Shown here: piece by piece, positions 31,500-64,000 of the stretch | Layout: the number at the start of each line of letters is the position of its first letter | Position numbering within the stretch: position 1 is the first letter of the stretch | From: Nitrosomonas sp. | Lineage (GTDB): Bacteria > Pseudomonadota > Gammaproteobacteria > Burkholderiales > Nitrosomonadaceae | Assembly (NCBI GenBank): GCA_028577615.1 | Contig: JAJSDU010000006.1 | Coordinates: 27,291-91,290 of the forward strand | Length of the DNA: 64,000 nt | Reading direction: 5' to 3' | Program-made: the position numbers and the translations under genes | Notes under the pieces: model-generated | Told to the model about the DNA's origin: nothing | Database searches by the model: none | What the model saw: only the letters and a program-made list of their open reading frames with translations

Positions 31500-31548
31500 A
31501 GCAGGATGGAAAACGGTATTTATATAATTGATCTGGAACGATCCAATC

Positions 31549-32550
31549 ATGATGTTTCTGGATTTTCCTATCGCCGTGACAGCAGCATCCATACTGGCAG
31601 TTTTGATATCCTATTTCGTAAATTTGTTGTTCATACAGTGGAAGGTCGCTGCGATACTGGATTATCCAAATTCAAGATCTTTACACGAGACACCCGTGCC
31701 ACGCATTGGCGGACTGGGTTTGCTGCTGGGCGCAATGTTGTCATGGGGTCTTTTTACGGTCGGCCTCCCTGTTTCCATCTGGCTCGGCGTAGCCTTGCTG
31801 GTCAGCATTTCTATAGCGGACGATCTTTGGAAAATGCCCGTATGGAGCCGGTTATGCGTACATAGTCTGACCGCAGCTGTTTTCTCATTTTTAACCATCG
31901 ACACTCAAGACTGGCATATTCAAATATGTCTTATACTGGCGATCATCTGGATGACGAATCTGTATAACTTCATGGATGGATCTGATGGACTGGCGGGCGG
32001 CATGACACTAATCGGTTTTGGTTATTACGGACTGGCTGCCTATTTGTCAGACAATATTGATTTTTCAGTGGTCAATTTTTCGATTGCGGCGGCCGCGCTT
32101 GGTTTTCTGTTGCATAATTTTCATCCCGCGCGCATTTTTCTCGGCGACTCCGGCGCCATCCCGCTTGGTTATCTGGCTGCTGTCATGGGCTTTCTCGGCT
32201 GGCTGCATGAATTATGGTCTCTGTGGGTTCCACTGCTGATCTTTTCACCATTCATAACCGATGCCTCGGTCACACTGGTCAGACGTTTCTGTCGCGGCGA
32301 AAAAATCTGGCTGGCGCACCGGGATCACTATTATCAGCGATTAGTGCAAAGCGGCCTCGGTCACCGGAATACCGCGCTTCTCGGTTATGGATTGATGCTT
32401 GCCGCCGGTGCCTGTGCTGTCTGGATGAATACTCAGGATCTGACAGCGCAATCCATCATGGTTGCGGTCTGGGGCGGTCTTTATCTGGGATTGATGTTGA
32501 TGTCAGATATGAACAACAAGCCTTATTCGAATGAAAAAATAAAACAATAG
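31549..32550 (+). CDS. undecaprenyl-phosphate glycosyl-1-phosphate transferase (WbpL/WecA-like)
   Basis: Integral membrane enzyme that starts polysaccharide or O-antigen units by moving an N-acetylhexosamine-1-phosphate from its UDP-sugar to undecaprenyl phosphate. About 333 residues with ~10 membrane helices. Conserved loops: NLYNFMDGSDGLAGG (Mg-binding Asp pair), ARIFLGDSGAIPLGYL, and LAHRDHYYQRL, the His motif of the WbpL subgroup. The ATG at 31549 (or 31552) is chosen over an upstream TTG at 31528. Its stop is 1 bp from the next gene, so they form an operon. Confidence 0.9.
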   Translation: MMFLDFPIAVTAASILAVLISYFVNLLFIQWKVAAILDYPNSRSLHETPVPRIGGLGLLLGAMLSWGLFTVGLPVSIWLGVALLVSISIADDLWKMPVWSRLCVHSLTAAVFSFLTIDTQDWHIQICLILAIIWMTNLYNFMDGSDGLAGGMTLIGFGYYGLAAYLSDNIDFSVVNFSIAAAALGFLLHNFHPARIFLGDSGAIPLGYLAAVMGFLGWLHELWSLWVPLLIFSPFITDASVTLVRRFCRGEKIWLAHRDHYYQRLVQSGLGHRNTALLGYGLMLAAGACAVWMNTQDLTAQSIMVAVWGGLYLGLMLMSDMNNKPYSNEKIKQ

Positions 32551-32551
32551 C

Positions 32552-34420
32552 ATGTTTGGAAACAAGTACGGGATACGCTCTGTCATTGCATTCATCCATG
32601 ATCTGATCGCCGTAGCGGCATCGTGGTTATTTGCTTTCCTGTTTTATGCCAATTTCAAAGTTGCAAATGTTCCCTTTACGTTATTAGGGGATATTCTGTC
32701 ATGGATTCTGCCGGTGCAGGCTGTATTTTTCTTATGGTTTGGCTTGTACCGGGGACTGTGGCGGTATGCCAGTCTGCCCGACCTGAAGCGCATCACCGTT
32801 ACCGTGCTGTTAAGCGCTGCACTGGTTACGAGTGTTTTCTGGCAACTGGCGCTGCTGGGCATCGTTCCCTATTCAGTCAATATACTTGCTCCGATCCTGC
32901 TGCTGCTGATTATGGGCGGCAGTCGCCTGATTTATCGCGCATGGAAAGAGCGCCGTCTGTATAGTCTGAAAAATTATGAGGGTAAGCTGGTTCTCATTCT
33001 CGGTGCCGGCAACACCGCGCTGAATCTGGTCAAGGATTTGGCGGGCAATCAGGACTGGCATGTTGTTGGCATGCTCGACGACGATCCCGGCAAACTGGAT
33101 ACGCGCCTGCACGGTGTGCGCGTTTTGGGCACTATCGATGATCTACCGCACTGGGTTCACAAGCTGAACGTGGGACATGTCATTATCGCCATGCCATCGC
33201 TTTCACATCGCGCCCATCGCCATATTCTGGAAATGTGCTCGGAAATGAGTGTCAAGGCGATGATCATACCGTCATACCAGGATCTCATCAACGGAAAAAC
33301 CACGGTCTCGCAGATTCGCGAGATTCAGCTTGATGACCTGCTCGGCCGGGAGCCGGTTGTACTGGATGACGAAGGACTGCATGGCTTGCTTACTGGAAAA
33401 ACCATTCTGGTTACCGGCGCGGGCGGTTCCATTGGCGCTGAGCTATGCCGTCAGATTGTCGCCTTCCAGCCCGCGCACCTGGTTTTGCTCGAGCTCAATG
33501 AATACGCACTTTATTGCACTCAGGAGGAATTCCAGACAAATTTCCCTGACACGCGCATGTCATTTGTAATTGGTGATATCAAGGACAATGCGCGCCTGCA
33601 GCAGATTTTTGCGCAGTACCGGCCATCCGTGGTGTTTCATGCCGCAGCTTATAAACACGTGCCATTGATGGAACATGAAAATGCCTGGCAGGCTGTATTG
33701 AATAACGTCATGGGCACTTATATATTGGCCGACACCGCGATCCATTACGATGTTGAAAAATTCGTTCTGGTATCCACCGACAAGGCAGTGAATCCGGTCA
33801 ACACCATGGGCGCCAGTAAACGGCTTGCGGAAATGGTCTGCCAGGCAATGCAGCAGTCGACATTGAATCAGCAGCACGGCACCTGTTTTGTCATGGTGCG
33901 CTTCGGCAACGTTCTCGGCAGCGCCGGCAGTGTTATTCCCAAATTCCGCAAGCAAATCGCCAGTGGCGGGCCGATCACGGTTACGCATCCGGACATGACG
34001 CGCTATTTCATGTCCATACCTGAAGCCGCGCAACTGGTGTTGCAGGCCGGTCTGATGGGTGGTTTGAAAGGCGGCGGGGAAATTTTTGTCATGGACATGG
34101 GTGATCCGGTGAAAATCACCGAACTGGCAAGTGACTTGATTCGTTTGTCCGGCTTGGGGGAGGATGATATCCGTATTGTATTTACCGGCTTGCGTCCAGG
34201 TGAAAAACTGCACGAAGAGCTACTGTCAGCGAATGAAAATACCGTGCCTACACCACACGCAAAATTGCGCATCGCACAGGCGCCCGAAGTTAATGAACAG
34301 TGGCTGGCGGCGCTGATCACACGTTTCGAGAAAATCAAGGCGCTGAACGATGTCGAAGCGCGCGCCGAACTGGCGCGATGGGTGCCAGAATATACGCCGA
34401 ATGGCGAAAGCATGCATTAA
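32552..34420 (+). CDS. membrane NDP-sugar 4,6-dehydratase (WbpM/PglF/CapD-like)
   Basis: Makes a 4-keto-6-deoxy sugar nucleotide, probably from UDP-GlcNAc, at the inner membrane. 622 residues: four N-terminal membrane helices (~residues 10-125), a first Rossmann-like domain (LILGAGNTALNLV), then the catalytic SDR domain with TGAGGSIGAELCRQ and the family signature TDKAVNPVNTMGASKR, where the usual active-site Tyr is replaced by Met as in WbpM and PglF. With the upstream phosphosugar transferase it would supply and start an N-acetylated deoxyhexose glycan. Confidence 0.9.
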   Translation: MFGNKYGIRSVIAFIHDLIAVAASWLFAFLFYANFKVANVPFTLLGDILSWILPVQAVFFLWFGLYRGLWRYASLPDLKRITVTVLLSAALVTSVFWQLALLGIVPYSVNILAPILLLLIMGGSRLIYRAWKERRLYSLKNYEGKLVLILGAGNTALNLVKDLAGNQDWHVVGMLDDDPGKLDTRLHGVRVLGTIDDLPHWVHKLNVGHVIIAMPSLSHRAHRHILEMCSEMSVKAMIIPSYQDLINGKTTVSQIREIQLDDLLGREPVVLDDEGLHGLLTGKTILVTGAGGSIGAELCRQIVAFQPAHLVLLELNEYALYCTQEEFQTNFPDTRMSFVIGDIKDNARLQQIFAQYRPSVVFHAAAYKHVPLMEHENAWQAVLNNVMGTYILADTAIHYDVEKFVLVSTDKAVNPVNTMGASKRLAEMVCQAMQQSTLNQQHGTCFVMVRFGNVLGSAGSVIPKFRKQIASGGPITVTHPDMTRYFMSIPEAAQLVLQAGLMGGLKGGGEIFVMDMGDPVKITELASDLIRLSGLGEDDIRIVFTGLRPGEKLHEELLSANENTVPTPHAKLRIAQAPEVNEQWLAALITRFEKIKALNDVEARAELARWVPEYTPNGESMH

Positions 34421-34488: not shown

Positions 34489-36174
34489 TTAGCCTTCACC
34501 GGAAATAACAATTTCTCCTGTTTCCAGCAGCAGAATCCGGTCAATTCCTTCCCGGCAGGCCGGCATAATCGGTAACAAGAGTATTGTTGTGCGATTCCGC
34601 ATCACTGCCGTGAGCGCTTTGAACACATCGTCCGCCAACTCCTGCGCATGTCGCGGCCAGAGATCATCGATGATCAGGATCGGTGGATTTCTCAGAAAAG
34701 CGCGCGCGACAGCAACAAGCTGCCATTGCTTGCGCGTCAGGCTCGCGCCACTGTCATCGATTCGTGTTTGCAAGCCCTCCGGCATGTCACGCACAAAACC
34801 CGCGACCCCGGTTGCCTGGATTGCATGCATAATGCCCGCTTCATGCGCGCAACCGGTATCACCATAAGCAATATTACCCGCGATGCGATCACTGAGAACA
34901 ACCGGAATACCGGAAATGACCGCAAACTGCGCGAGCAAATCGCAATGTCTGATCCGGCCGTAATCATGTCCGTCCAGCTTTATTTCACCCGTTGCCGGTG
35001 GACTGAAGCCCAGCAACAAATCCATGAGCAGCAATCTTGCCGCGCTGTCATCAGTAACCAGAGCGATCGTCTCCCCCGGTCTGATGTTCAAATTGAGTGT
35101 ATACGGCCGGCATGAAGCTTTTTCACCGCATCGCACATGCACCTGATCCAGCGTTAATTCTCCGCGTACTTCAGTTAAACTGACAGTGCCATGCGCTGAT
35201 ATTGCGGCAAGATCAAACACTGCAAGCAATTGCTCCAGTTGTCGCTGTATCAGTCCAGGTACACGGGACACTCCGGCCAGACGACTGATGGGCATTACCA
35301 GCAACAACATGATGGCGATGAAGGCACCGGCCTGGTCAATCGATAATGTATTGTCAATAACCTGTTGCATCAGCAGATAAACCATCGCTATGCCAATCAG
35401 GACAATCAATAGCTGACAGAGCATTGCAGCGAACGCCTTATAGTCATTTTGTTGATTCTCGCTGTTCAGAATGGACTGGGCGGTACTGCCGAGATGCTGG
35501 CACTCCTGCTGTTGTCCGCCCAACAGTTGAATATGGCGAAAGTTCTCGAGACAATGGCGCAAGCGGTCTGTCAGCCCGGTATTAGCGGGCTCGGCGTTTT
35601 GCATACCGGCATCGGAATAGCATTTTTGCTGGCCGGTTGTAACCTGAAGCATCAGAAAAACAAAAGGAATCAGCAGGCAAATCAGTATCGCAATTTCCCT
35701 ATTCAAATAAAAAAGGCATGCAATCAGTCCTGCAACGGCAAGCGTATCCCGCATCAATACAGTCAGTGTTTGCATGCTTGTCTTCGATATCGACCGGGCA
35801 TGGTGTAATGCCGCATGAGCAGCATGATTTTCGTCCGCGGATTGATAATACCGCACGGGCAGACGAAGCAATTTGTCAAACAATACGCTGTTCAGTTGCA
35901 TAACGAGCTGTTTGTCTGCTTTTCTCATCCAGTACTGGCCGATATATCCGGAAACACTGTAAATGATGACAAGTATAATAAAAACGAGCAGTGCGGTTTT
36001 CGCACATGATTCGTCCTGTTCGATCAAGGCGGCGTGCAGAATGCGCTGAATCTGTATCGGCAGGAAGGCCATTGTTGCTGCCATGGTTATCATGGCCAGC
36101 GCGGCCCAGAAAACAGAATGCCCGCAGGCTGTCATCATTCTTGCAAGACGCCGGTAATAGTGTACTTGAATCAT
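34489..36174 (-). CDS. MsbA-type ABC exporter with degenerate nucleotide-binding domain
   Basis: 561-residue full-length half-transporter. The first ~320 residues are a six-helix exporter domain; residues ~338-561 align to an ABC ATPase but every catalytic motif is changed. At the Walker A site (373-382) VTDDSAARLL replaces G-x-x-G-x-G-K-S/T. The Q-loop reads ISGIP without Gln. The signature (479-483) is LTRKQ instead of LSGGQ. Walker B ends in Asp503-Asp504 instead of Asp-Glu, and Pro535 occupies the switch-His position. The frame is open and has no internal stop, so it is probably an expressed, non-hydrolysing protein rather than a pseudogene. AGG precedes the ATG. It lies beside polysaccharide genes on the other strand; no partner ABC gene adjoins it. 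Confidence 0.85.
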   Translation of the reverse strand: MIQVHYYRRLARMMTACGHSVFWAALAMITMAATMAFLPIQIQRILHAALIEQDESCAKTALLVFIILVIIYSVSGYIGQYWMRKADKQLVMQLNSVLFDKLLRLPVRYYQSADENHAAHAALHHARSISKTSMQTLTVLMRDTLAVAGLIACLFYLNREIAILICLLIPFVFLMLQVTTGQQKCYSDAGMQNAEPANTGLTDRLRHCLENFRHIQLLGGQQQECQHLGSTAQSILNSENQQNDYKAFAAMLCQLLIVLIGIAMVYLLMQQVIDNTLSIDQAGAFIAIMLLLVMPISRLAGVSRVPGLIQRQLEQLLAVFDLAAISAHGTVSLTEVRGELTLDQVHVRCGEKASCRPYTLNLNIRPGETIALVTDDSAARLLLMDLLLGFSPPATGEIKLDGHDYGRIRHCDLLAQFAVISGIPVVLSDRIAGNIAYGDTGCAHEAGIMHAIQATGVAGFVRDMPEGLQTRIDDSGASLTRKQWQLVAVARAFLRNPPILIIDDLWPRHAQELADDVFKALTAVMRNRTTILLLPIMPACREGIDRILLLETGEIVISGEG

Positions 36175-36190
36175 GGACCTGTGATTTATT

Positions 36191-36215: not shown

Positions 36216-36406
36216 TTTTAAGTCAGAAGCAGCGATTCTCGCTGCAAGTTTTATAGCGTAGATATAGTACAATGCGCATTTCACTTAATCTCAGTCGGGA
36301 AATCACGCATACTGCTTATTTTAGTCAGCATCCGGCGCGCGCCTGAACTTGACATTTACCCGCATACCGTATCGCACTGCTCTGATTTAACGGAATAAAC
36401 GAAGTG

Positions 36407-37333
36407 ATGCAATCAACACAACAGATCGAAGAAAATAACATTCAGCAGCGTACGCCACAGAGAAAAGGCATTGTGCTTGCCGGTGGTTCAGGAACAAGAC
36501 TTTACCCGGTGACCAAGACTGTTTCCAAGCAGCTGTTACCGGTTTTCGACAAGCCCATGGTCTATTATCCGCTCAGCACACTGATGCTCGCTGGTATACG
36601 CGATCTGCTGATTATATCAACACCGCAGGATATCGCCGATTATGAACTGTTGCTCGGTAACGGGCATCAATGGGGATTGAATATCGCTTACGCGATTCAA
36701 CCCGAACCAGGCGGACTGGCGCAGGCTTTTCTCATTGGCGAATCCTTCATCGGTAATGATTGTTCGGCCCTTGTGCTCGGCGACAATATTTTCTATGGCC
36801 ATGATTTCTGTCATTTACTGTCCAACGCCATGCAGAAAACATCCGGCGCCAGTGTCTTCGCTTATCATGTGCAGGATCCCGAACGTTATGGCGTAGTCGA
36901 GTTTGATACACAGGGACAGGTATTGAGTCTGGAAGAGAAACCGTTGAATCCGAAATCGAATTATGCAGTAACCGGACTATATTTTTATGACCGCAATGTT
37001 GTTGATTACGCCAAAAGCATTAAGCCTTCGCATCGCAACGAACTGGAAATCACGGATGTTAACCGGATTTATATGGAGCATTCAGCGCTGAATGTTGAAA
37101 TCATGGGGCGCGGTTATGCCTGGCTGGATACCGGAACGCACGAATCACTGCTCGAAGCAAGTCATTTTGTAGCGACGATAGAACATAGGCAGGGATTAAA
37201 AATTGCCTGCCCGGAAGAAATTGCTTTCCGTCAGGGCTGGATTGACGCCGCACAGCTGGAAGCACTCGCAATGCCCTTAGCGAAGAACGGTTACGGCCAG
37301 TATCTGCTGCAAGTCCTCAAGCGCAAACATTAA
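36407..37333 (+). CDS. rfbA: glucose-1-phosphate thymidylyltransferase
   Basis: First step of dTDP-rhamnose synthesis: dTTP + glucose-1-P to dTDP-glucose. ATG at 36407 (a GTG three bases earlier is also in frame), about 308 residues. Nucleotidyltransferase signature [22 protein letters not shown] split over residues ~21-42 and the Mg-binding [10 protein letters not shown]. The first ~18 residues before GIVLAG are longer than usual and polar. Followed 13 bp later by rfbC. rfbB and rfbD are not in the window. Confidence 0.93.
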
Positions 37334-37346
37334 AGAGCCTTAAAGC

Positions 37347-37904
37347 ATGAATGCGACACAACTGGCAATACCCGATGTTTATCTTCTGCAACCGGAAGTT
37401 TTTGGCGATACGCGTGGCTTCTTCTATGAAAGCTTCAATCAACGGCAATTTGATCAAATTATTGGCAAACACGCGGCTTTCGTGCAAAACAATCATTCCC
37501 GCTCGATGAAAAATGTACTGCGCGGCCTGCATTATCAAATAAGACAACCGCAAGGCAAGCTCGTGCGTGTCGTTGCGGGGGAAGTGTACGATGTTGCCGT
37601 TGATTTGCGCCATTCTTCGCCGACTTTTGGTCAATGGGTGGGTGAAATACTGAGCGCCGAGAACAAAAAGCAGCTTTGGATACCGGAAGGATTTGCGCAC
37701 GGTTTTGTTGTGCTCTCGGATTATGCCGAATTTCTGTACCAGACTACCGACTACTGGGCACCTGAACATGAACGCTGCATTATCTGGAACGATCCCACAC
37801 TCGCCATCGACTGGCCTGTTGATGGAGAACCGGCGCTTTCCGCCAAGGATGCGCAGGGTAAATCATTCAAAATGGCGGAAATCTATACGGATAGTCAGAC
37901 GTAG
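37347..37904 (+). CDS. rfbC: dTDP-4-dehydrorhamnose 3,5-epimerase
   Basis: Cupin-fold epimerase of dTDP-rhamnose synthesis, 185 residues. It has the conserved RGFFYESFNQRQFD start, the catalytic His in RGLHYQ, GEVYDVAVDLR, and the IPEGFAHGF and YAPEHE-type stretch (YWAPEHERCI). Paired with rfbA in one transcript. A complete dTDP-rhamnose pathway would also need rfbB and rfbD elsewhere in the genome. Confidence 0.94.
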   Translation: MNATQLAIPDVYLLQPEVFGDTRGFFYESFNQRQFDQIIGKHAAFVQNNHSRSMKNVLRGLHYQIRQPQGKLVRVVAGEVYDVAVDLRHSSPTFGQWVGEILSAENKKQLWIPEGFAHGFVVLSDYAEFLYQTTDYWAPEHERCIIWNDPTLAIDWPVDGEPALSAKDAQGKSFKMAEIYTDSQT

Positions 37905-48201: not shown

Positions 48202-48717
48202 ATGCGATCAAATTTGAAACTTATCTTTCGCGCCCTTCCTCTCCTGCTTTTAGCAGCATGCATTAGCATGCCAGATGGCCCGAGCATTATGGCTTTACCT
48301 GGGAATGGGAAAAATTTTGATCAATTCCGTCATGATGATTATGCATGCCGACATTACGCTCATGAACAAACTGGCAGCACTACAGCAAAAGGCGCGGCAG
48401 TTAATAGTGGCTTTAATAGCGCCGCTATTGGCGCCGCACTGGGCGCAATCGCTGGTGTTGCTTTCGGTGGTGGACAAGGTGCAGTCATCGGCGCGGGCAC
48501 GGGTGTTCTGGCCGGCGGATTGGTTGGCTCAGACAATGCCAGGACTTCCGGTCTGATCAATCAACAGCGTTATGATCAGGGTTATGTGCAATGCATGTAT
48601 GCAAAAGGCCATCATGTTCCTGTTGCAGGTACTTTCCGAAATGATCCATATGACAGCGGTCAAAATATTATTCCGCCCTCACCACCGGGGTATCCGCCTG
48701 CTCCAGTATACCGATAA
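48202..48717 (+). CDS. glycine-zipper lipoprotein, copy 1
   Basis: 171 residues. Lipoprotein signal with LAAC (Cys at about residue 20), a family-like stretch MPDGPSIMALPG, a region FDQFRHDDYACRHYA, then a glycine zipper (AAIGAALGAIAGVAFGGGQG; GAGTGVLAGGLVG) that probably inserts into a membrane, and a Pro-rich tail. Similar to proteins with a YMGG/Gly-zipper motif in the outer membrane of proteobacteria. 22 bp downstream of the Gly/Tyr-rich gene. Role unknown. Confidence 0.75.
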   Translation: MRSNLKLIFRALPLLLLAACISMPDGPSIMALPGNGKNFDQFRHDDYACRHYAHEQTGSTTAKGAAVNSGFNSAAIGAALGAIAGVAFGGGQGAVIGAGTGVLAGGLVGSDNARTSGLINQQRYDQGYVQCMYAKGHHVPVAGTFRNDPYDSGQNIIPPSPPGYPPAPVYR

Positions 48718-49249: not shown

Positions 49250-49795
49250 ATGTTTACTGTCCGCAAATTACTTTATCCAGTTGCCCTTACACTCCTTGCC
49301 GCCTGTGTTGGCTTGCCCAACAGCCCGAGTATTATGGTATTGCCCGGCACCAATAAGAATTTTGAACAATTCCGCTACGATGATTACGAATGCAGGCGTT
49401 ATGCCTACGCACAAATTGGCGGCATCACACCAAGAGATGCCTCGGTTTCCAGCGGTGTCGAAAGCGCCGCTGTAGGTGCCGCCTTAGGTGCGGCAGCAGG
49501 TGCTGCGCTTGGCGGTGGAGAAGGCGCTGCAATTGGCGCCGGAACCGGATTACTCGCCGGAGGCTTGACCGGATCAGGCACATCGCGAACTTCAGGTTAT
49601 GAAGCCCAGTATCGCTATGACATCAATTATATTCAATGCATGTATGCAAAAGGACACCGAGTTCCCGTAACAGGTAGATTTTCCAATGAACAATCTCCAA
49701 CCTCATCCCAGCCAGCAAAAATTCTACCCCCTCCTCCCGGATTTACACCACCACCACCACCACCTGGCAATCCACCACCTCCACCGTCACAGTAA
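49250..49795 (+). CDS. glycine-zipper lipoprotein, copy 2
   Basis: 181 residues; paralogue of the gene at 48202. Lipobox LAAC, LPNSPSIMVLPG, FEQFRYDDYECRRYA, glycine zipper (AAVGAALGAAAGAALGGGEG; GTGLLAGGLTG), the shared YIQCMYAKGHRVPV stretch, then a poly-Pro C-terminus (PPPPPPGNPPPPPSQ). Together with the preceding gene it is a repeat of the two-gene cassette at 47658-48717. The two copies differ along their whole length, so the duplication is not recent. Confidence 0.75.
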   Translation: MFTVRKLLYPVALTLLAACVGLPNSPSIMVLPGTNKNFEQFRYDDYECRRYAYAQIGGITPRDASVSSGVESAAVGAALGAAAGAALGGGEGAAIGAGTGLLAGGLTGSGTSRTSGYEAQYRYDINYIQCMYAKGHRVPVTGRFSNEQSPTSSQPAKILPPPPGFTPPPPPPGNPPPPPSQ

Positions 49796-63483: not shown

Positions 63484-64000
63484 TTAATTGTCGTCGTCAT
63501 CATCATCATCGTCGTCTTCATCCTCATCTGCCCCATCCCAATCATCCCAACCGTCAGCCTTTAATACCAGCTTCTTCTGCTCACGACTCGCATCCAGATC
63601 CGTCATCGGCGCTTCTTCATGCACCAGATTCTGATGACAATCTATACAGGTCGCACCATGCGTCTCCATCCGTTTATGCGCCGCCTGCGCGTCTTCACCC
63701 GGCGGATCAGGATTCTTATGACAGTCACGACATGTCACACTGTCCCATTTCTTCAAATTCATCCGCGCATCGTGCGCCATGATCAATCGCCGCTCATTGA
63801 ATTTCTCCAGCGTCGAATAATCATTCACCAGCTCCAGCCACAATTCACGCGCACCATCCACTACGTGCGTATATACCGCCAAATGAAAGTTCCTGAATCC
63901 CTGCGGTATATGACAATCCTTGCAGCCAGGGTTAACGCCCAACGCCCCATAGTGCGTCGATTCCTTCAACTCCTCCTGCGGGTATGTCATCGAATGGCAG
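63484..64000 (-). CDS. cycB: NapC/NirT-family multiheme cytochrome c (cM552-like), C-terminal part
   Basis: About 172 codons; the N-terminus with the membrane anchor is outside the window. Three full heme motifs are seen (CKDCH, CRDCH, CIDCH), and the last residues of another (CHS) are at the right edge, consistent with a tetraheme NapC/NirT protein. Nitrosomonas cM552, encoded after hao and cycA, belongs here and is thought to pass electrons from hydroxylamine oxidation to quinone. The identification as cM552 is inferred from family, organism type and the acidic tail. The C-terminus ends in an extreme acidic run (DEDEDDDDDDDDDN). Confidence 0.82.
   Translation of the reverse strand, partial: CHSMTYPQEELKESTHYGALGVNPGCKDCHIPQGFRNFHLAVYTHVVDGARELWLELVNDYSTLEKFNERRLIMAHDARMNLKKWDSVTCRDCHKNPDPPGEDAQAAHKRMETHGATCIDCHQNLVHEEAPMTDLDASREQKKLVLKADGWDDWDGADEDEDDDDDDDDDN

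Follow-up and report, generated by a model that had tools for sequence, protein, structure and literature searches.

In a normal ABC transporter the ATP site is built from the Walker A motif of one half and the LSGGQ motif of the other. It is disputed whether an ABC exporter's membrane portion can still accomplish anything useful when ATP plays no part. According to excerpts of the pertinent papers, E. coli MsbA without its nucleotide-binding domain (NBD) moved ethidium by means of a pH gradient, and the full-length protein without K382 showed no ethidium efflux in cells (PMC4979069); a strain requiring MsbA was rescued neither by the variant lacking K382 nor by the one lacking the NBD (PMC8660845). 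The loss of lipid A genes is already known from two species of the family discussed here. In the excerpted part of Opiyo 2010 only lpxK was found in N. europaea, and only lpxA is cited, after the genome paper, for N. multiformis (PMC3087551). A paper on Caulobacter, in the sections available, names N. eutropha as one of the bacteria that have a sphingolipid cluster, and proposes that export of the sphingolipid involves second Lpt parts (PMC11324152).

The window, i.e., the whole stretch of 64,000 nucleotides of Nitrosomonas sp. that was analysed, contains an exporter gene of this kind, the product of which we call pseudo-MsbA. It is almost certainly the MsbA ortholog of a family without LpxC, its ATP site being destroyed and its transmembrane domain (TMD) as well as the remaining NBD being kept under purifying selection. 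The gene and its parts are:

34489..36174, minus strand: pseudo-MsbA, full-length ABC exporter reading frame of 561 aa, ATG start, uninterrupted, ATPase motifs lost
35290..36096, minus strand: transmembrane domain ABC_membrane, residues 27-295 (Pfam PF00664, 73.2 bits)
34663..35097, minus strand: nucleotide-binding domain core ABC_tran, residues 360-504 (Pfam PF00005, 37.3 bits)
36178..36180, minus strand: AGG upstream of the ATG with 3 nt spacing, weak ribosome site

Both domains exceed their Pfam cut-offs, 28 bits for PF00664 and 25 for PF00005, which places the protein in the ABC exporter superfamily. The PF00664 match extends over profile positions 7-273 of 274, and the six membrane helices of the first-pass annotation are predicted from this nearly full-length match. 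The same annotation had described a full-length exporter free of stops and frameshifts and with its ATPase motifs gone; indeed, the frame is open over all 561 aa, and one of ten key ATPase residues is left. The AGG that it noted before the start is present, yet has to be rated as a weak ribosome site because it lies just 3 nt before the ATG. The top NCBIfam model is MsbA, TIGR02203, with 280 bits, which is below the curated cut-off of 602. A structure prediction reached a pLDDT of 33 from an input of two rows only, the window protein and its 86% identical Nitrosomonas relative L037.

The motif residues were read in E. coli MsbA numbering from an alignment with 24 canonical MsbA sequences. The A-loop tyrosine Y351 is replaced by C. 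In Walker A, G381 has become A, K382 R, and residue 383, which should be S or T, L. The Q-loop Q424 is G, S482 and G484 of the signature are T and K, the Walker B E506 is D, and the switch histidine H537 is P. D505 of Walker B is the only one of the ten that is kept. The corresponding segments are:

35029..35055, minus strand: former Walker A, TDDSAARLL, residues 374-382, no G-x4-G-K-S/T
34897..34923, minus strand: former Q-loop, AVISGIPVV, Gln replaced by Gly
34717..34743, minus strand: former ABC signature, SLTRKQWQL, LSGGQ changed to LTRKQ
34663..34680, minus strand: Walker B, ILIIDD, Asp kept, catalytic Glu replaced by Asp
34561..34584, minus strand: former H-loop, ILLLPIMP, switch His gone

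An intact Walker A, Q-loop, LSGGQ, Walker B Glu and H-loop, as expected of an MsbA, are thus all missing. That every motif is replaced, as had been claimed, holds for Walker A, Q-loop and switch His, but Walker B still has its Asp next to the changed Glu, and the signature its final Gln (LTRKQ).

The ancestry of the protein was clarified by a careful tree of 48 rows, comprising 22 of the 119 family rows, 23 outgroup MsbA (G094 omitted), E. coli MsbA and two TIGR02204 paralogs as root. The family rows form a single clade with a support of 100/100 amid the outgroup MsbA rows. The fork that nests the family within the outgroup MsbA has a support of 88/85, less than the program's own threshold, and the sister group is left unresolved. 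G095 and G090, which a quick tree with 68 of the 119 family rows had presented as sisters of the family, were dropped as such, since the careful tree does not resolve the sister. By its position in the tree, the window protein is the family's ortholog of MsbA, sharing common descent with it. Of 17 canonical paralogs that had at first been taken for MsbA, the six covered by a later profile search all score as TIGR02204. The TIGR02203 cut-off is passed in 22/24 outgroup genomes versus 0/37 Nitrosomonas genomes; a tally over the whole family gives 6 of 125 genomes above and 119 below it. In five of these six the rows are shown, and GK[S/T] is absent there too.

The surroundings of the gene are likewise recurrent. 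Its neighbours in the window are:

32552..34420, plus strand: convergent neighbour, nucleotide-sugar dehydratase of the Polysacc_synt_2 family (PF02719, 390 bits)
31528..32550, plus strand: next neighbour, WecA/MraY-like sugar-phosphate transferase, Glycos_transf_4 (PF00953, 99.8 bits)
36404..37333, plus strand: divergent neighbour rfbA, glucose-1-phosphate thymidylyltransferase (TIGR01207, 502 bits)
37347..37904, plus strand: rfbC, dTDP-4-dehydrorhamnose 3,5-epimerase (TIGR01221, 278 bits)

Lipid-linked glycan genes thus do adjoin, as stated in the first-pass annotation, but they are not its operon: being convergent or divergent, they leave pseudo-msbA standing alone. Dehydratase and rfbA recur around the Nitrosomonas genes. 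With L001 omitted from the neighbour count, a convergent sugar dehydratase lies at most three genes downstream in 46/76 loci of Nitrosomonas (g1), 17/22 of g27, 3/8 of g28, 1/6 of g26 and 1/22 of the outgroups, and rfbA is divergent upstream in 64/76 Nitrosomonas loci. Some of the gene clusters found upstream in g26-g28 are met again in outgroups, it being understood that single-linkage clusters may join paralogs. Elsewhere in the window, the neighbouring reading frames at 48202-48717 and 49250-49795 encode similar small glycine-rich lipoprotein-like proteins and look, by eye, like a duplication. Another one at the window end (63484-63990) combines three CxxCH haem motifs with a long aspartate tail.

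The family was represented by 125 genomes of four genera: g1 (Nitrosomonas, 85), g27 (23; we infer that it is Nitrosospira), g28 (9) and g26 (8). Its members are ammonia-oxidising bacteria. As outgroups served 24 genomes from other Burkholderiales families with 24 MsbA rows. A match to pseudo-MsbA at 1e-30 was seen in all 85 Nitrosomonas genomes, and orthologs, one row per genome, were recovered from 119/125 genomes: 82/85 Nitrosomonas, 23/23 g27, 8/9 g28 and 6/8 g26. The Nitrosomonas genomes G009, G031 and G048 offered only a paralog-like match of 23-24% identity and were excluded from the rows. The other genomes without a row are G110, G111 and G148; several of the six are incomplete, and G110 and G111 do have matches to the MsbA model. 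Rows cut by contig ends (outgroup G094; family G113, G063 and G021) were scored as misses where cut. Three rows, L101 (G068), L102 (G003) and L103 (G002), were reported with in-frame stops within the aligned span despite a nearly full-length open frame; these stops are probably match margins.

The loss of the ATP site is a property of the whole family. GK[S/T] of Walker A is found in 1/119 family rows versus 24/24 outgroup MsbA, and an alignment-free pattern search likewise yields 1/119. The sole keeper, G065, is a Nitrosomonas with a formal G-x4-G-K-T. The signature SGG is preserved in 2/119 family rows versus 23/24 in the outgroup, the A-loop Tyr in 3/119 versus 24/24; Walker B DE is still present in 87/119. 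Among the 82 Nitrosomonas rows GK[S/T] is missing in 81 and SGG in all 82, one of which (G021) ends before the signature. By group, the motifs are retained as follows:

GK[S/T]: outgroup 24/24; g27 0/23; g28 0/8; g26 0/6; g1 1/82
Q-loop Gln: outgroup 24/24; g27 3/23; g28 0/8; g26 4/6; g1 6/82
Signature SGG: outgroup 23/24; g27 2/23; g28 0/8; g26 0/6; g1 0/82
Switch His: outgroup 23/24; g27 8/23; g28 0/8; g26 0/6; g1 2/82
A-loop Tyr: outgroup 24/24; g27 1/23; g28 0/8; g26 0/6; g1 2/82
Walker B DE: outgroup 23/24; g27 16/23; g28 6/8; g26 4/6; g1 61/82

Two g27 genomes, G132 and G133, are intermediates: they have kept the Q-loop Gln, the signature SGG and the switch His, but not GK[S/T]. The simplest reading of the counts per genus is that Walker A was lost first, before the genera split, and that the remaining motifs eroded later and separately. 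The erosion differs along the protein. Of the columns that are invariant in the outgroup, the 20 of the nucleotide motifs have a mean retention in the family of 0.37, the 60 others of the NBD one of 0.63, and the 36 of the TMD one of 0.52. Retention is 0.15 or less for each of the following: A-loop Tyr, Walker A Gly two and three, Q-loop Gln, the two signature Gly and switch His. In Walker A, the Lys taken alone reaches 0.61 and the first Gly 0.59. At the other extreme, N436, I437, Y439, G440, F462, G469, R493 and T531 of the NBD show a retention of at least 0.96. These highly kept columns, which are remote from the nucleotide motifs, presumably lie on the side facing the membrane domain.

Selection was estimated as dN/dS (omega) by the method of Nei and Gojobori with Jukes-Cantor correction, using 31 pairs that share no row and have a dS of 0.1-0.6. 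The median omega is 0.26 overall (range 0.12-0.36), 0.23 for the TMD and 0.20 for the NBD (NBD range 0.10-0.60), the NBD value being lower than that of the TMD in 17/31 pairs. For the window gene and its nearest relative, G040, the values are 0.27 overall, 0.32 for the TMD and 0.17 for the NBD. Stop-to-stop frames of at least 540 aa are seen in 116/119 family rows; the other three end at contig ends. When random point mutation was simulated, 0.1 per site left 0/1000 frames open and 0.05 per site 71/1000. These values indicate that pseudo-MsbA, its dead ATPase domain included, is under purifying selection. An omega near 1, stops or frameshifts, as expected of a pseudogene, are not seen. The first-pass annotation was therefore right in denying a random pseudogene, and the decaying gene that it named as the alternative is not what emerged, because relatives share the losses family-wide and dN/dS is about 0.26. 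What it missed is that the protein is the MsbA ortholog itself, that the motif loss is common to the family, and that the host lacks LpxC.

LpxC is the committed enzyme of lipid A synthesis. In a profile search it was found in 24/24 outgroups and in 0/125 family genomes. The lipid A pathway that an MsbA host should have is thus not recognisable by its LpxC, and because the enzyme is missing from all 125 family genomes, lipid A is probably not made in the family. The terminus of the Lpt path is nevertheless there without LpxC: LptD was detected in 30/30 family genomes tried and in 6/6 outgroups. The own genome of the window also contains a serine palmitoyltransferase with 577.7 bits (cut-off 500), which is grouped with an acyl-AMP ligase, an SDR-type protein and an acyl carrier protein. 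This ceramide four-gene set is complete in 14/15 regions read, and three of its genes occur in the remaining one; the 15 regions had been chosen by a hit of a weaker model, NF047600. NF047599 (serine palmitoyltransferase) matched all 15 rows read, which are from the family only. NF047600 itself was discarded as a serine palmitoyltransferase model, since 0 genomes exceed its cut-off; the family scores 334-363 bits (32/32), the outgroups 305 or less (8/8). Since LpxC is absent, LptD is kept, the ceramide genes are present and the cluster of N. eutropha is published, ceramide lipids have probably replaced lipid A in the family.

In three genomes (G081, G083 and G037; loci L282, L283 and L291) pseudo-msbA and the ceramide operon are a few kb apart, and the intervening genes resemble the window's rfbA, rfbC and 452-aa reading frame by size and order. 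In 2/15 regions an ABC exporter with intact motifs adjoins the serine palmitoyltransferase (L284:10230-11978 and L288:7097-8815); L003 of the own genome was judged by eye to be a close relative of these two. The exporter beside the serine palmitoyltransferase is a candidate for the ceramide-lipid flippase, i.e., the new pump. TIGR02204 was rejected as a universal replacement flippase, as it exceeds its cut-off in 31/37 Nitrosomonas genomes and 8/24 outgroups.

A second lipid A protein has been altered as well. LpxK is found in 82/85 Nitrosomonas genomes and in 0/40 genomes of the other three genera. Single absences are soft, because the model misses 2/24 outgroups, G085 and G090, both of which have LpxC. 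The LpxK rows read were 22 from Nitrosomonas (of 82 genomes; L255, which is C6 of the own genome, L256-L274, L231 and L232) and 22 from outgroups. GN and GG of the P-loop are each retained in 0/22 Nitrosomonas rows versus 22/22 outgroup rows, DDG[LM]QH in 0/22 versus 21/22. The frame is kept, and omega is 0.14-0.17 in four pairs, three of which share rows. A CPxC tail, presumably Trm112-like, is attached to 11/22 Nitrosomonas proteins versus 0/22 in the outgroup. Since GKT is kept in 14/22 and the Lys in 20/22, LpxK is less degenerate than MsbA; its evolution may be running in parallel, towards a lipid-binding protein without catalytic function.

What does pseudo-MsbA do? Our best explanation is that after the loss of lipid A it became an ATP-independent lipid-handling protein. 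Two copies, clamped to each other through their pseudo-ATPase domains, would form a homodimer, and the former MsbA cavity would take up an anionic lipid or glycolipid. The bound lipid might equilibrate between the leaflets or be handed on, with the proton gradient as a possible aid. An intact ABC exporter together with the retained Lpt path would see to the active export of whatever replaces lipid A, probably ceramide lipids. Taken as a whole, the near-certain statement on ancestry, ATP site and selection together with this ATP-independent lipid handling has about an even chance of being correct. The more specific version, a flippase or scramblase for the replacement outer-membrane lipid that works independently of ATP or is driven by protons and uses the former motor domains as a structural clamp, perhaps with LpxK as a parallel case, is tentative: possible rather than probable.

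The lipid ring provides arguments in both directions. Over 119 rows R78 is basic in 91, R148 in 74 and K299 in 70, and E149 is acidic in 111. Such a partly kept ring, together with the precedent of MsbA without an NBD, makes ATP-independent lipid handling our best guess. The basic ring weakens in Nitrosomonas, where R148 is basic in 37/82 and K299 in 36/82 rows, and this counts against lipid handling. The acid at D41, which is linked to proton coupling in E. coli, is missing in 109/119 rows, including 82/82 of Nitrosomonas; this is a further point against it, as are the failed rescue by E. coli MsbA without K382 or NBD and the lack of ethidium efflux in cells with the full-length protein without K382. 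The E. coli ring residues D252 and R296 are uninformative because they are unconserved even in the 24 outgroup rows. The persistence of Walker B DE in 87/119 rows has also to be booked against the best explanation. Moreover, a pure transporter domain need not retain a selected NBD; this favours a role in binding or as a scaffold.

The main rival takes up just this point. A pseudo-enzyme that does not transport at all but serves other envelope proteins as membrane scaffold, chaperone or lipid sensor, comparable to pseudokinases, would better account for the constrained NBD; we consider it conceivable, if somewhat doubtful. In its favour, the dead NBD is constrained like the TMD, with the lower omega in 17/31 pairs, and LpxK as a second lipid A enzyme has lost GN and GG of its P-loop in 22/22 rows with frame and low omega (0.14-0.17) maintained. 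Against it, the cavity residues of the TMD are still partly retained; LpxK, with GKT in 14/22 and Lys in 20/22, is the less degenerate of the two, and its 0/40 in the other three genera makes pseudo-MsbA independent of it. Nor is an operon partner seen, the conserved flanking genes being in the other orientation. Persistence of some non-canonical nucleotide binding or hydrolysis is improbable. Walker B DE in 87/119 rows, the formal G-x4-G-K-T of G065 and the retention of the Walker A Lys (0.61) and first Gly (0.59) would fit it, yet A-loop Tyr, the other Walker A Gly, Q-loop Gln, signature Gly and switch His, each at 0.15 or below, do not.

The two remaining readings fit poorly. The first-pass annotation had thought of the inactive half of a heterodimeric exporter, the partner of which would supply the working ATP site. 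Exporters with one degenerate site are common, according to an excerpt of PMC7756269, SGG is still found in 2/23 g27 rows, and an intact exporter adjoins the serine palmitoyltransferase in the 2/15 regions mentioned. A degenerate half should, however, offer an intact signature or Walker A, and in Nitrosomonas SGG is found in 0/82 and GK[S/T] in 1/82 rows; with 81/82 rows lacking GK[S/T] and 82/82 SGG (one row being cut before the signature), no partner would find the counterpart for a normal ATP site. Within the stretch read around the gene, a second exporter-like frame occurs in just 2/119 family loci (G044 and G047). The nearest canonical paralog, TIGR02204, is above its cut-off in no more than 31/37 Nitrosomonas genomes, and G033, a 100% complete genome, has no match to it at the threshold used. 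The idea was not borne out and must be regarded as quite unlikely. A relic that decays slowly after the loss of lipid A is very unlikely. Decay would agree with the loss of LpxC, with the strong divergence of the rows from species to species, with a reduced length behind the H-loop (median 22.5 aa in Nitrosomonas versus 46.5 in outgroups) and with the 6/125 genomes that gave no row. It is contradicted by an omega of 0.12-0.36 in all 31 pairs, by 116/119 frames of at least 540 aa with the remaining three stopping at contig ends, and by the neutral simulation, in which the frame breaks fast.

Pseudo-MsbA is thus best described as a selected pseudo-ABC exporter left behind after the loss of lipid A. 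In the openly accessible literature searched we found no description of an ATP-dead MsbA that is retained and selected. The family offers a natural experiment on the disputed usefulness of an ABC exporter's membrane part without ATP, since intact relatives, the intermediates G132 and G133 and the end state are all available for comparison. It also reveals a fate of lipid A proteins after the loss of LpxC: at least two ATP-using members have been kept under selection with altered ATP sites. Finally, it concerns a large and environmentally important group of Gram-negative bacteria, the outer membrane of which probably relies on another lipid with LptD being kept.

Compared with known systems, pseudo-MsbA is closest to MsbA itself (TIGR02203, E. 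coli). It is its ortholog by tree, has the same domain order and a similar length, and keeps part of the ring residues. It differs by the lost ATP site, the host without LpxC and scores below the TIGR02203 cut-off in 119/125 genomes. With the heterodimeric exporters (TAP, TM287/288, the ABCC family and Pdr5) it shares substitutions in Walker A, Walker B, H-loop or signature, as far as the excerpt of PMC7756269 goes. There, however, one site is intact, whereas a homodimer of pseudo-MsbA would have both sites dead, and a canonical partner would be unable to complete a site with it. The SbmA-like peptide transporters, in the excerpted description, have an ABC-type transmembrane fold without ATP hydrolysis (PMC13316013), which would be a real likeness if the proposed mechanism is right. 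In contrast to pseudo-MsbA with its selected pseudo-NBD, SbmA draws its energy from the proton gradient, and that excerpt compares it to a TMD alone (PMC13316013). The truncated or K382-deleted E. coli MsbA, finally, is also an MsbA TMD without a working ATPase, as presented in the excerpts of PMC4979069 and PMC8660845. These variants were engineered, whereas pseudo-MsbA is natural, family-wide and at home in hosts without LpxC.
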